A stretch of DNA of 44,968 bases. It comes from Microcaldota archaeon. GTDB lineage: Archaea > Micrarchaeota > Micrarchaeia > Micrarchaeales > CABMGC01. A program made the translations under genes and the position numbers. The notes beneath the pieces are model-generated. The model saw only the letters and a program-made list of their open reading frames with translations. It ran no database searches and was not told the origin of the DNA. Below, one piece after another: positions 10,392-40,941 of the stretch; position 1 is the stretch's first letter; each line of letters begins with the position of its first letter. The DNA lies in contig JAJYJW010000005.1 in the NCBI GenBank assembly GCA_021789155.1, forward strand, positions 1 through 44,968, given 5' to 3'.

Positions 10392-11180
10392 TTACATGTG
10401 ACCTGATTCAAACAAAGCGCGCATTATCCTATAAGCGAATTCATCGCTGATTTCAGGGAACTGCTCCAAAATCTGCATTTCAGTTACCGCCCCTTTTTCT
10501 TTTGCAAACTTCAATATTTCTATTGCGGAATTGCTTTCGTTTATGTCTCTTACTTTGGCGTACTTGCAAAACAGTCTTTTTTCAGATGTGGTTACCTCCG
10601 CATCACTCTCGCTTCTAAGCAACTCATTTAGTGCGTTTAACTGATCAGTTTCTATGTTCCTCCTTTGATTTTTATCCTCTGCAAGCTTTTCCACCATCCT
10701 TCTGTTGGCATCGTTCAGCTTGTCCAGTTCCTTTTCGACCAATTTCTGCGCTTCTTCTGGTGCGAGCGTCTTGAAGTTCTTGAGTAATTCTGCGTTTTCT
10801 CTAGCAAACTGCCTCAATGCATTTAGTACGATATTCCCCTTGTCTGTCAAATGCAACTTTCCATACGGCGATACCAGCTTGTCATTGACGCAAAAGTTCA
10901 ACGCTCCTTCAGCATCAAACTGCCTGAACACATCATCGTTGGTTTTTGCAATTGCCCGTGCATAATTAAGTATGCCTTCTTTGCTGCTCCTGTAAGATGG
11001 TCGCGTGTCAACCGCAATCATCACCACCAGCTCGTTCGCATCAGGGTATGCATAGGGATGTGTTACAACCCCCCTGGTGAAGACAATCGAGAGATAATCG
11101 TCATGCGCTAGCAGACTGTCGTTGAACCAGTTTATCAAGACTTGGTTGACATCTACTTCTGCCTTCTTCTGACCGTTCAT
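10392..11180 (-). CDS. Hypothetical protein upstream of rad50 (C-terminal winged-helix-like region possible)
   Basis: 262-aa ORF without overlapping alternative; no family recognised. Confidence 0.6.
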   Translation of the reverse strand: MNGQKKAEVDVNQVLINWFNDSLLAHDDYLSIVFTRGVVTHPYAYPDANELVVMIAVDTRPSYRSSKEGILNYARAIAKTNDDVFRQFDAEGALNFCVNDKLVSPYGKLHLTDKGNIVLNALRQFARENAELLKNFKTLAPEEAQKLVEKELDKLNDANRRMVEKLAEDKNQRRNIETDQLNALNELLRSESDAEVTTSEKRLFCKYAKVRDINESNSAIEILKFAKEKGAVTEMQILEQFPEISDEFAYRIMRALFESGHM

Positions 11181-11688: not shown

Positions 11689-11747
11689 AGAGATATAGAG
11701 TTAATATACAAGAACATATAAAAAACAGTGGGAAAACGTATTTTTGT

Positions 11748-11822
11748 GGGCATGTGGCGTAACTTGGATAGCGCAACGGCTTGCGGAGCCGTAGGTTGCG
11801 GGTTCAAATCCCGCCATGCCCG
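11748..11822 (+). tRNA. tRNA-Arg (anticodon GCG)
   Basis: GGGCATG...CATGCCC acceptor, ACGGC-TTGCGGA-GCCGT anticodon arm, GCGGG-TTCAAAT-CCCGC T arm; AT-rich TATA-like acatataaaaaa upstream. Confidence 0.95.
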
Positions 11823-11902
11823 AATCCTCTTTTCAAGGTACGAAACGATGAATCAGATATGATTATAAATGCAGATAATCTAAGCTTGTCCTAAGTGTTG
11901 CG

Positions 11903-13072
11903 ATGAATGCGCTCAGCAATGGCGATGACGAAACTGTTCATGTGAAAACCGAACAGAATTTCGGTTCGAGGGCGGAAATACAGAAGCTGCTCATGGATAA
12001 CGTCAGAAATCCTATGCGTGAGAAGGAAATAATCAGCCAGCTAGAGAAAAGCATTGTCGCAGATGACTTCAATGGTGCAGCGAACCTTCTGGAGAATTCT
12101 GGCTTGCATAAGAAAGGTGCGTCTGGCAAGTTGGAGATGTTCGTCATCAAGAGCCTAGTTGAGAGCATAAATTACAAGAAGCAAGACAGCAGGGATACTG
12201 CCTCTCGCTTGAAGAGAGAATATGGGTTGGGCTACTTTGATCTAAAGAATATAGTCGCTAAGAGCATGGAGAAAAACCTCAGCAAGAATACATATGACGG
12301 GTTGGCTAATGCCGCATTGCTGGCAGAGATATTCCACGTTCCAAATTCCGATCTTGTAAAGTACAGGGACATGGCACTTAAATGTGCAACCGATACGTTC
12401 GCAAATGCATACGTCAACCCTAAGAGCACTACTGCCGAGTTGCGCGCATTTGGAATAAACTCCGAAGACGCAAAGCTATCGTTTCTGGCATCGATGGGAA
12501 AGTTGATGGAAAACGGACATTTTTGGTATATTGATTTGGCTGAAAAGTTTTTCCACTTGACGTATGGCGATATAAAACACCTGAAAGGCATTGCGATTGA
12601 TTCAATCGGGGCTTTTCTCAAGGCAAAGAACAGGGCGTATTTCATCGATGAAGTTGCGAACATGGCGAAGCTCTTTAAGATAGGCGCCGGAGAACTAAGC
12701 GCATTCAAACCATCTGCGATAAAAAGCGTGGGCAGGGCACTGCACTCAGGAGAAGACCTGGAAAAACTGAACCACATAATGCGATTGTTCGATATAACAA
12801 ATTCAGATATTAAGGGAGAAGTGGGTATTGTCATCAAATCACTTATAGCACAGGGCAGCGATCTGAAAATGGAGGTTGCACGCTTCCTCGTCGAACGATT
12901 CAATTTCTCAGATTCGGATTTTGATATGATGGTGAAGGAAGTAGCAATGGAATACGTGATGCACCTCAGGCTGAAAGACGCGGAAAGAATAATATGGAAT
13001 GCCGGGATGAAAGTTGAGGATGTCAAAGCGCTAATATCCGAGGCAAACGTCAAGGCGCGAGGTCCCCAATAA
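11903..13072 (+). CDS. Hypothetical alpha-helical repeat protein (paralog A of tandem pair)
   Basis: 389-aa ORF; shares NVRNPMREKEII, SMEKNLSKNTYDGLANAALL and LRLKDAERIIWNAGM with the next ORF. Confidence 0.7.
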   Translation: MNALSNGDDETVHVKTEQNFGSRAEIQKLLMDNVRNPMREKEIISQLEKSIVADDFNGAANLLENSGLHKKGASGKLEMFVIKSLVESINYKKQDSRDTASRLKREYGLGYFDLKNIVAKSMEKNLSKNTYDGLANAALLAEIFHVPNSDLVKYRDMALKCATDTFANAYVNPKSTTAELRAFGINSEDAKLSFLASMGKLMENGHFWYIDLAEKFFHLTYGDIKHLKGIAIDSIGAFLKAKNRAYFIDEVANMAKLFKIGAGELSAFKPSAIKSVGRALHSGEDLEKLNHIMRLFDITNSDIKGEVGIVIKSLIAQGSDLKMEVARFLVERFNFSDSDFDMMVKEVAMEYVMHLRLKDAERIIWNAGMKVEDVKALISEANVKARGPQ

Positions 13073-13093
13073 TAGAAAATTAGGGATGGTTTT

Positions 13094-14344
13094 ATGGTAG
13101 AGACAACAAAGAAAACTGATGTGTTCACATCTGAGAATGAAGTGTGCGAATTTCTAGTTAAAAACGTGTCGAATCCGATCCGTACGCAGGAGATAGTTGC
13201 GGAACTGAAGCGCGTTTATTCGCTCCAGAGCGACAGGAGCATACATGCCATCAGAGAAGACATGGACAATGCGGGTATAGATGGAAAGAGCATAGCCCAA
13301 GAAATAAAGCCTTCAATCATTGAATTTCTCGCGAGGGTGGACTTTTCAGTCAATTCGATGGATCTTGCGCATAGCGTAAATCATCTGTTCGGGTTAACAT
13401 ATGAAAATATGAAAAGCGAATTCGCAAATTCCATAACAAAAAACTTGAAAGAGAATACGTTTCAAGGATTGTTTAACGCAGCGATTTTGTTGTCGTCATT
13501 CGTGCCGGGAGGGAAGACGGAGGAATTCAAGGATTTGGCTCGTGAGACAGCAAGGGACCTATTCGCATACGATTTGCCCAGGTTAGCAAGCCAAAACCCT
13601 AAGTTCCATGAGTCTCTGCTTTTTCACATAAATTGCGTGTCTGGCTGGTTGGAGCAGTTCGGCGTTTCAGAGGGAGAGGTCAAGCAGGATTACCTGTCTC
13701 AAATCCCGAACATAATGCACCGTTTCGGGAACGAAGGAATCAAGTTCATAGAAAGGACGGTCGAAGGCACGGGCAGATCCGGGGTGCTTGGTCTTAAGAG
13801 AGAGGATATGCTTGTTTTCAAGCAGAATGCGATAGAGCAAATGACAGTGTTTTTGGATCTAAGGAAAACCACATCCTCTTTTGATGATTTAGTCAGGACC
13901 ATCGAGTTCTTCGGAATTTCGCAAAATGATACTGGGCAATTCAAGCAGAAAGCAGTAAAGAAGATTGGCGGCATAATGTTCAACAGCAATTCGAGGGAGT
14001 GGTTGCTTGCCCATGGAGGTTCGCCAAGCAATTTAGCGAGAGTGATGGCAGCATTCGGCATTTCTACAGACGACATGAAGCAGGAAATCATAAAAGTGGT
14101 CTGGAAGAGAATAAAAGAAGCAAGCGCTTATAGCGTAGAAACCGCAATGCTGCTCATAAACGGATTCGGATTTCGCAAAGAGGATTTCCAGGAGAGCATA
14201 AACAAAGCCGTAAGACATCTCATGAACGGGCTCAGATTCAAAGAAGCATCAGAGATAATAATGCTCGTCGGCATGGACAAGAGAACTGTGGAAATGCTCG
14301 CAAGCCAGGCAAGCCTGGAATTCAGCAAACGCGGGTCAGATTAA
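13094..14344 (+). CDS. Hypothetical alpha-helical repeat protein (paralog B of tandem pair)
   Basis: 416-aa ORF; NVSNPIRTQEIV, SITKNLKENTFQGLFNAAILL and LRFKEASEIIMLVGM align with paralog A. Confidence 0.7.
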   Translation: MVETTKKTDVFTSENEVCEFLVKNVSNPIRTQEIVAELKRVYSLQSDRSIHAIREDMDNAGIDGKSIAQEIKPSIIEFLARVDFSVNSMDLAHSVNHLFGLTYENMKSEFANSITKNLKENTFQGLFNAAILLSSFVPGGKTEEFKDLARETARDLFAYDLPRLASQNPKFHESLLFHINCVSGWLEQFGVSEGEVKQDYLSQIPNIMHRFGNEGIKFIERTVEGTGRSGVLGLKREDMLVFKQNAIEQMTVFLDLRKTTSSFDDLVRTIEFFGISQNDTGQFKQKAVKKIGGIMFNSNSREWLLAHGGSPSNLARVMAAFGISTDDMKQEIIKVVWKRIKEASAYSVETAMLLINGFGFRKEDFQESINKAVRHLMNGLRFKEASEIIMLVGMDKRTVEMLASQASLEFSKRGSD

Positions 14345-14369
14345 TAAAACTTCAATGCATATTCAGTCC

Positions 14370-14738
14370 ATGGCGAGGAAAACGGACGATATCGATAGCA
14401 TAATCGAATCGGTAAACAGATGGGAGGCTCGCAGAAGCAGGAATAGCGGAGTAATATCGCGGCAATCGCAGGAATCTCAGCAGCAGGGCAAAATTCTGGT
14501 TGGCAAAGTAGACAAGTTCTTCTCGAAACTCAATGTGGCTGCAGTGAAACTTGCGCTTCCGATAAGCGTTGGCGACGTGATCGAGATAGGAACAGAAGAG
14601 GAAGCGATAAGGCAGAGAATAACGAGCATGCAGATAAACAGAGTGGAAGTAAACGAAGCAAAGGAAGGAGACGATGTGGGCATAGCACTCAAGTACAACG
14701 TCGCAGAAGGGAGCGACGTATACAAAATCGTGCGATGA
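14370..14738 (+). CDS. Translation elongation factor-like beta-barrel protein
   Basis: VGKVDKFFSKLNVAAVKLALPISVGDVIEIG...ITSMQINRVEVNEAKEGDDVGIALKYNVAEGSDVYKIV resembles EF-Tu/IF2 domain-2-like archaeal proteins; alternative ATG at 14355. Confidence 0.7.
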   Translation: MARKTDDIDSIIESVNRWEARRSRNSGVISRQSQESQQQGKILVGKVDKFFSKLNVAAVKLALPISVGDVIEIGTEEEAIRQRITSMQINRVEVNEAKEGDDVGIALKYNVAEGSDVYKIVR

Positions 14739-39267: not shown

Positions 39268-40941
39268 TCAGGTCAATTTTGTCGTTATATTGAAAGATAT
39301 ATCGAGTACCTTAAGGTTCTTCAATTTTAATACGTCGGTATTCAATTCAATGCTGCCGCACTCAAGCTTCAATACCTCCAGAGACGACATGTTTTCTATG
39401 CCTTTTGGCAAATACTTTATGGAATTTAAGTTCAAGGTCGCATCGCTGTAACTGCCCGGCTGGTTGTTCAAGTACAGGGATTTCAATGAGGCGATGTTGC
39501 ACAGCACTTCAGGAAATGCCCTGAATTTATTGTTGCTCAGCCCGAGTTGTTCAAGTTTTTGCATGCGTGCGAGGCTATCGGGCAATTCTGTCAGTTCGTT
39601 TTCATGCAGGATTATGACCGATGCTTCTTTCATCTCCCCGAATTTCTCCGGAAGAGCCCCTATTTTATTCCCACTTGCATCGAACACGCGCAATTTCGGT
39701 AAATTGCACATGCTTTCAGGCAGGTATTCGAGCAAATTGTCTTCTATGTTGAGTTCTTCCAATTGCGATAGATGACCTAAATTCTCCGGAAGCCTGACTA
39801 GCATGTTCGTACTAAGGTTAAGCTTCTTCAGCTTGCCCAGTTCACACATGCTTTCCGGAAGAGTGCCGAAATCATTATACTGCATTTCAATTTCTTCAAC
39901 GTTTTCTGTTCTAGAGAATATATCTGGAAATTGATCAATAACCTTCTCTTCGCTTTCCTCTAGAATGGCGTCAACCCCAAATTCCAGAAATCTCATTTTC
40001 AGTATTCGCTTCGAATGTTCGTCGTCTATCAGATCGTTGAATACGTACTTCAGGCATTCCACAGCATTCGGAAGTACCTTTGCGTTGGTGCTTAGTTGTA
40101 TTAAACTGCGCATGCTTTCCAGGTTCCCCAGTAATGAATGGATGTATATCCCTTCATTAGCGCTTATCGTTATCGAATGCTCAATGTCTATGTGCTGATG
40201 TACGTATGCTGAAAGTATCTTCTTCCTGTCTTCGATGTCTGAAGGTATGGATATCATGAGCTTGAGGTATCTTCCAAGGTAATAATCATCTATATCACTA
40301 TCCGGCATGTTCTCGTTCGCTGGATAATCCTCGTTTATCTTTTCGCATTCCTTTGCAAAGCAGGTATTAGAGAGATGGTTTAGTAATGGCCAAGTCTTGA
40401 TTATTGGGTTTTCGTTAGTGCTGCTTTGGGAACCCACGTCGTTTATTCTACCAAACTCCGTTGCGAGGAAATCTGCGAATACTCGCTTTCCCTGCTCGGG
40501 TCCGAGAAATTCAAGGATTGTTTCAAAGCCCTTATTGTAATCAAATGCGTGCCCAGCTGACGATATTATGGAGGAAACGTCCCGCGCACAGTCGTCAATG
40601 TCATTGTATTTGAGTTTTTCGCTAGTTCCTAGTCTTTCTGATATTGGCTGTGATACTTGGTTCATGAATTTGAGATAGGCGTTGAATTTTTCGCTGGCGT
40701 CCCTAAGAAATTCGGCTATGTTCTTCTCCTTGGCGCATTCTCCGCAGGACATGCTAGCGCTGGTTGTCGTGAATTCGTGCAGGGAGCGTGCTATGCGCGT
40801 AGGCGAAAATTCATCTGTGTCCTTTGCATAACTGACGTTGACGTTGGGGGGTAGTGCCAAACCCTCTTTTTCGTCAACGCCCCGCTTGCAGAAGTAGCAG
40901 AACTGCTTAGGCGCTTTGCCTTCATTAGTTTTGTTCTCCAA
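39268..40941 (-). CDS. Leucine-rich-repeat protein with N-terminal Cys motifs
   Basis: CYFC and CGEC near the N-terminus; about 23-residue LRRs: LGKLKKLNLSTNMLVRLPENLGHLSQLEELNIEDNLLEYLPESMCNLPKLRVFDASGNKIGALPEKF. Confidence 0.85.
   Translation of the reverse strand: MENKTNEGKAPKQFCYFCKRGVDEKEGLALPPNVNVSYAKDTDEFSPTRIARSLHEFTTTSASMSCGECAKEKNIAEFLRDASEKFNAYLKFMNQVSQPISERLGTSEKLKYNDIDDCARDVSSIISSAGHAFDYNKGFETILEFLGPEQGKRVFADFLATEFGRINDVGSQSSTNENPIIKTWPLLNHLSNTCFAKECEKINEDYPANENMPDSDIDDYYLGRYLKLMISIPSDIEDRKKILSAYVHQHIDIEHSITISANEGIYIHSLLGNLESMRSLIQLSTNAKVLPNAVECLKYVFNDLIDDEHSKRILKMRFLEFGVDAILEESEEKVIDQFPDIFSRTENVEEIEMQYNDFGTLPESMCELGKLKKLNLSTNMLVRLPENLGHLSQLEELNIEDNLLEYLPESMCNLPKLRVFDASGNKIGALPEKFGEMKEASVIILHENELTELPDSLARMQKLEQLGLSNNKFRAFPEVLCNIASLKSLYLNNQPGSYSDATLNLNSIKYLPKGIENMSSLEVLKLECGSIELNTDVLKLKNLKVLDISFNITTKLT

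Follow-up and report, generated by a model that had tools for sequence, protein, structure and literature searches.

The question raised by this locus is what is encoded by two adjacent open reading frames, here called P1 and P2, which lie on the forward strand of a 44,968-nucleotide stretch of a Micrarchaeota genome (the whole stretch is referred to as the window). A preliminary description, made from the sequence, had regarded them as diverged duplicates built from alpha-helical repeats and belonging to no recognised family. Both frames were found exactly where that description had placed them, with P1 (389 amino acids) at positions 11903–13072 and P2 (416 amino acids) at 13094–14344. Codon usage in the right frame scores 0.33 bits per codon for P1 and 0.29 for P2, resembling that of the other genes in the window, whereas the other five frames are negative; both genes are therefore coding. 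The two proteins align over their whole length in BLASTP (405 columns, 27% identity, 45% similarity, E 7e-35), which bears out the proposed duplication and identifies P2 as a diverged tandem paralog of P1. Each of the motif pairs that had been quoted as shared at the N-terminus, in the middle and at the C-terminus was located in P1 and P2, respectively (NVRNPMREKEII and NVSNPIRTQEIV; KSMEKNLSKNTYDGLANAALL and NSITKNLKENTFQGLFNAAILL; LRLKDAERIIWNAGM and LRFKEASEIIMLVGM). The likeness is highest in an N-terminal NVxNPxR stretch, in a helix with the pattern KNLxxNTxxGLxNAAxL and in a C-terminal LRxKxAxxIIxxxGM stretch. The net charges are 0 for P1 and −4 for P2 (pI 7.1 and 6.2, respectively), and the majority of their relatives are acidic. 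Neither protein was found to contain a transmembrane-like segment (the maximum Kyte–Doolittle value over 19 residues is about 1.0), a secretion signal or a catalytic domain.

The internal units of roughly 35–40 residues that had been proposed for each protein are supported by self-alignment, in which P2 scores above all of 200 shuffled sequences and P1 above 197 of 200, indicating that the repeats are real and diverged. In P2 a trace of the repetition is visible in the DNA as an in-frame direct repeat (13817–13842 and 13940–13965) with a spacing of 123 nucleotides, or 41 codons. AlphaFold2 models, each computed from a two-row alignment holding only the two paralogs, are all-helical stacks of hairpins, with a mean pLDDT of 77.3 and a pTM of 0.63 for P1 and corresponding values of 74.3 and 0.63 for P2. 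In the P1 model the long helices begin at residues 37, 75, 115, 148, 187, 221, 262, 300 and 337, and after each of them comes another helix, in most cases a shorter one, to give hairpins of 33–41 residues. The repeat array of P1, drawn from these helices and from repeat similarity to a protein described below, thus comprises about nine predicted hairpins and a terminal cap helix that begins at residue 372 (residues 37–385; 12011–13057, forward strand). Most of the first 35 residues of P1 have pLDDT values below 50. The helices of the P2 model are similarly spaced, and its array, placed from the model and from the direct repeat, spans residues 28–412 (13175–14329, forward strand).

Comparison of the models with the PDB using Foldseek returned, at the top of the list, almost exclusively natural or designed helical-repeat proteins, which are scaffolds or adaptors. 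They include the TPR domain of OGT, the PCI proteins Rpn5 and eIF3a, AP-2, importin alpha, VPS35, the PP2A A subunit and designed helical repeats. None of the matches reached an E value of 0.001 or lower and the TM-scores were low (about 0.1–0.3), so that the structural comparison yields generic alpha-solenoids and no specific homologue. The predicted fold class, an alpha-solenoid as the preliminary description had suggested, is well supported by these models.

At the level of sequence, nothing in Pfam, NCBIfam, PHROGs or PADLOC matches P1, and the same four libraries give only sub-threshold matches for P2, the best in Pfam being TPR_COPA_B at E 0.011. No significant match to PDB chains was obtained, either with P1 alone or with a profile of the pair (E ≥ 0.095); the slight likeness of the profile to TFIIA and L41 is attributed to chance. 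Searches of phage and viral collections and of PHROGs gave nothing to indicate a phage, viral or plasmid origin. In a viral fold library the matches to African swine fever MGF505 and to giant-virus ankyrin proteins reflect generic helical repeats, none having E ≤ 0.001. A role in defence was rejected, there being no credible PADLOC match. Within the collection of papers searched, none dealt with alpha-solenoid, TPR or LRR proteins of Micrarchaeota. The view that P1 and P2 belong to no recognised family thus stands: the family is uncatalogued and undescribed, while its alpha-solenoid architecture is itself familiar.

The closest connection outside the genome is to a 375-residue protein of Candidatus Micrarchaeota archaeon DBS2-1.bin97 (genome G211; JAJYLX010000002.1, our locus L038, 808–1935), which is unannotated and consists of nine similar, near-identical 34-residue units such as KPEVLKQLGSLVHEGNTTRATNAATEFGLKPEEV. 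A profile of P1 and P2 finds this protein with an E value of 2.3e-8, the reverse search from the G211 protein finds P1 at 3.9e-7 (per genome), and hhalign gives a probability of 96.7 for the relation. The G211 protein scores 28.2 bits on P1 and 35.5 bits on P2, compared with maxima of 2.3 and 3.9 bits among 500 shuffles of each. The kinship is specific, in that consensus arrays of TPR, PPR, ARM, HEAT and Sel1 repeats run against P1 and P2 scored within the shuffle range or not at all, and the profile of the pair found nothing in these arrays or in an ankyrin array. The 34-residue unit of the G211 protein, PEVLKQLGSLVHEGNTTRATNAATEFGLKPEEV, is the same as the degenerate units of P1 and P2. The family is marked by tandem hairpin units of about 34 residues that end in F-x-(I/L)-x-x-(D/E), and such units are indicated in P1 and P2 by the helix spacing of the models and by a single-unit profile. 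The G211 protein differs in being a single gene with nearly identical units, in lying beside ftsY and a secretion ATPase, and in lacking the N-terminal NVxNPxR region. This profile, built without sequences from the window, gives a much weaker signal (its real score was reached by two of 1000 shuffles of P1 and one of 1000 of P2, p about 0.001–0.003), in keeping with the strong divergence of the units in these two proteins. In Pfam and NCBIfam the G211 protein also matches single, unrelated families (DUF6522, DUF1103 and others); these matches are mutually inconsistent and were set aside as artefacts of repeat composition. Judged by these sequence comparisons, P1 and P2 are not isolated, and their repeat unit belongs to a divergent family scattered over the Micrarchaeota.

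The distribution of this family was surveyed at two levels. Full-length homologs of P1 and P2 were found in their own genome only, with none in 60 relatives or in about 300 genomes of the phylum, and none at close range in viral, phage and GTDB collections. A match in genome G041 (E 0.0028) was dismissed as chance, as the protein reads as a DHH-type phosphoesterase. Related repeat proteins, on the other hand, occur in at least 15 of 296 genomes of the phylum. Members were counted only if the match was below 1e-3 or if one open reading frame held several units, because a looser count with the unit profile (45 genomes at E ≤ 0.1) would include about 30 genomes expected by chance and was not accepted. 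Searches with the G211 protein and the unit profile recovered at least seven repeat reading frames in G214, four of them clustered on one contig, and further repeat proteins in G050, G034, G218 and G100. Outside the genomes used as seeds the family was found in G098, G022, G253, G078, G099, G167, G060 and G191, several of the reading frames having many units. As to copy number and synteny, members are often in tandem in these relatives, with neighbours that vary from genome to genome.

Several details of individual loci may be recorded here. Among the members tested, a Pfam helical-repeat model covers only one (L061, 1–1869, on contig C52 of G214), a protein in which an N-terminal hydrophobic segment and true TPRs precede the helical-repeat units and which is a possible link between the TPR and helical-repeat unit types. 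Clusters of adjacent helical-repeat genes in G214 (contig C37, L058) and G099 (contig C16, L103) indicate that tandem expansion is recurrent. From gene identities read from the sequence, ftsY lies beside repeat genes in G211 (L040) and G060 (L105), and lipA lies near them in G022 (L100) and G191 (L106); the proximity of either gene is probably due to chance.

P1 and P2 start directly after a tRNA-Arg gene (anticodon GCG; 11747–11823, forward strand, ARAGORN), which is the last element of a conserved block containing aEF1B, an HVO_2753-type zinc protein and this tRNA, often with rad50. Nineteen loci of the same family were scanned, and in 18 of them this tRNA adjoins aEF1B and the zinc protein. 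Past the tRNA the relatives carry different genes, with no hidden ortholog and no P1/P2-like reading frame, and the pair is therefore peculiar to its lineage, at an edge of the block where gene content varies. A TATA-box-like sequence, TTATAAAT, read at 11863–11870 (forward strand) about 33–40 nucleotides before the start codon of P1, is a possible promoter of the P1/P2 unit; in a promoter consensus scan it was at chance level, with no statistical support. We also note that between rad50 and aEF1B the window encodes a 262-residue protein (10392–11180, reverse strand) with no homolog in the 60 relatives, which hold other genes in its place.

Downstream, the pair is followed by a 127-residue beta-barrel protein resembling domain 2 of EF-Tu (14355–14738, forward strand), assigned from a Pfam GTP_EFTU_D2 match with an E value of 9e-4 that is below the cut-off. 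The profile of its family matches EF-Tu (E 0.004) and the Pbp11 structure 7anu (E 0.11) best. Membership of the NCBIfam Pbp11 family (NF041207) is not indicated, the score being 12.3 bits (E 0.12) against a cut-off of 100. Because the intergenic gaps are only 21 nucleotides between P1 and P2 and ten between P2 and the EF-like gene, the three genes probably share one transcript, and P1 and P2 would then be translated from one message with the EF-like protein. The location of the pair directly upstream of this gene, as first described, is correct, but the arrangement does not extend beyond the lineage: the EF-like gene is kept in 40 of 60 Micrarchaeota relatives, beside other genes and independently of P1 and P2, and no hidden ortholog of the pair was found adjoining it. 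The adjacency is therefore lineage-specific and offers weak evidence of function.

In our view the best reading of P1 and P2, to which we assign a probability of about 0.55, is that they are specific to their lineage, act in the cytosol as scaffolds that bind proteins, and belong to an alpha-solenoid family not yet described. Alpha-solenoids in general serve as scaffolds or adaptors that bind partner proteins along their concave face, and it is this general behaviour that makes such a role the likeliest for P1 and P2. Their near-neutral charge and lack of a membrane segment are also easier to reconcile with a soluble binder of proteins than with a binder of nucleic acids or a membrane protein. 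Both proteins appear to be built almost wholly from the 33–41-residue helix-turn-helix repeats of the divergent Micrarchaeota family, and duplication of the whole gene in tandem would have followed formation of the repeat array. Each would fold into a curved superhelix and hold a protein or peptide partner on its concave side, where the second helix of every hairpin would be exposed. The two paralogs would thus serve as scaffolds or adaptors with a rapidly evolving ligand preference, and they may bind different partners. Neither a partner nor a fused catalytic domain nor a conserved neighbouring gene points to a specific function.

A separate matter is whether P1 and P2 descend from a classical repeat family, as diverged TPR, HEAT/ARM or PCI proteins that have become invisible to sequence models. 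This is a claim about descent that is compatible with a scaffold function, and we regard it as possible, if doubtful. In the TPR superfamily (OGT TPR domain 1w3b; PCI proteins Rpn5 and eIF3a) antiparallel hairpins of about 34–40 residues are stacked into a superhelix, as those predicted for P1 and P2 may be, and its members are among the top fold matches to the predicted hairpin stack. In the same direction point the sub-threshold TPR_COPA_B match on P2 and a Clathrin_H_link match (2.7e-5, below the cut-off) on a relative, L104. However, TPR structures were matched with a TM-score of only about 0.2 and E values above 0.001, P1 and P2 lack the TPR signature and reach no curated cut-off, and with the TPR consensus array they score no higher than shuffled sequences do. 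Likewise, the HEAT/ARM adaptors AP-2, importin alpha and VPS35 are superhelical scaffolds found among the fold matches, but show no sequence similarity to P1 and P2, whether by consensus array or in Pfam, and the P1 and P2 units are mostly shorter (33–41 residues). Binding of nucleic acid by a PPR- or OPR-like solenoid, which would target tRNA or mRNA jointly with the downstream EF-domain-2-like protein, appears unlikely. PPR repeats are also two-helix units, of about 35 residues, and the repeat profile built from other genomes, without P1 and P2, gives an idealised PPR array 26 bits; the faint likeness of the adjacent gene product to EF-Tu domain 2 and the tRNA-binding Pbp11, and the tRNA-Arg gene directly upstream, might be read in the same sense. 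P1 and P2 themselves, in contrast, score nothing against the PPR consensus with its 35-residue signature and have no Pfam PPR match, and with net charges of 0 and −4 they are not basic, as a PPR-type RNA-binding groove would be; it is for these reasons that we consider RNA binding less likely. The EF-like gene, moreover, exists without P1 and P2 in relatives, and the tRNA belongs to the older syntenic block.

That the pair is recent mobile-element cargo, integrated at tRNA-Arg and without a selected function in the cell, is in our judgement most unlikely. The location immediately 3′ of a tRNA gene, where synteny becomes variable, and the absence of the pair from relatives would suit such an event; yet the tRNA 3′ end is not duplicated in the window, the phage and viral collections gave no match, the codon usage and GC content are host-like, and at 27% identity the paralogs are old. 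A further proposal is that P1 and P2 are interaction proteins of symbiosis, part of a genome-specific expansion of helical and LRR repeat proteins that engage a host or its products. LRR_8 matches occur in five reading frames of this genome, while only one of 59 relatives has any, and a 997-residue LRR protein on contig C15 (L098, 2670–5663) has a P1/P2-like stretch before its C-terminal LRRs, a weak likeness equalled by one of 1000 shuffles. The counts support the view that this genome in particular is enriched in interaction repeats. The helical-repeat family is also patchy, fast-evolving and multi-copy. P1 and P2, however, have neither a secretion signal nor a membrane segment, and the pattern also fits internal scaffolds; a role in host contact is improbable for the pair itself. 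Of the LRR reading frames, one lies in the window (39268–40941, reverse strand) and the others on contigs C15 and C32 (L098, L138, L139 and L140); in three of them, the window gene and those of 465 residues on C15 and 263 residues on C32, an N-terminal cysteine-rich CxxC-type motif precedes the LRRs.

Once the unit is recognised, orphan proteins from at least 15 genomes of Micrarchaeota fall into a single family, which has no entry in Pfam, NCBIfam or PHROGs and is so divergent that its members pass as unconnected hypothetical proteins when genes are annotated one at a time. The cytosolic scaffold reading of P1 and P2 concerns this pair; a broader and unlikely extension of it is that the unnamed, fast-evolving two-helix repeat family, distinct in sequence from TPR, PPR and HEAT, is an interaction-scaffold toolkit of the Micrarchaeota that has expanded together with LRR proteins in this lineage, possibly for contact with a host. 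The family points to variable surfaces for binding, specific to a lineage, in archaea that are reduced and probably symbiotic and of whose interaction machinery little is known. If the toolkit reading is true, an ultra-small archaeal genome would be devoting coding space to variable binding surfaces.
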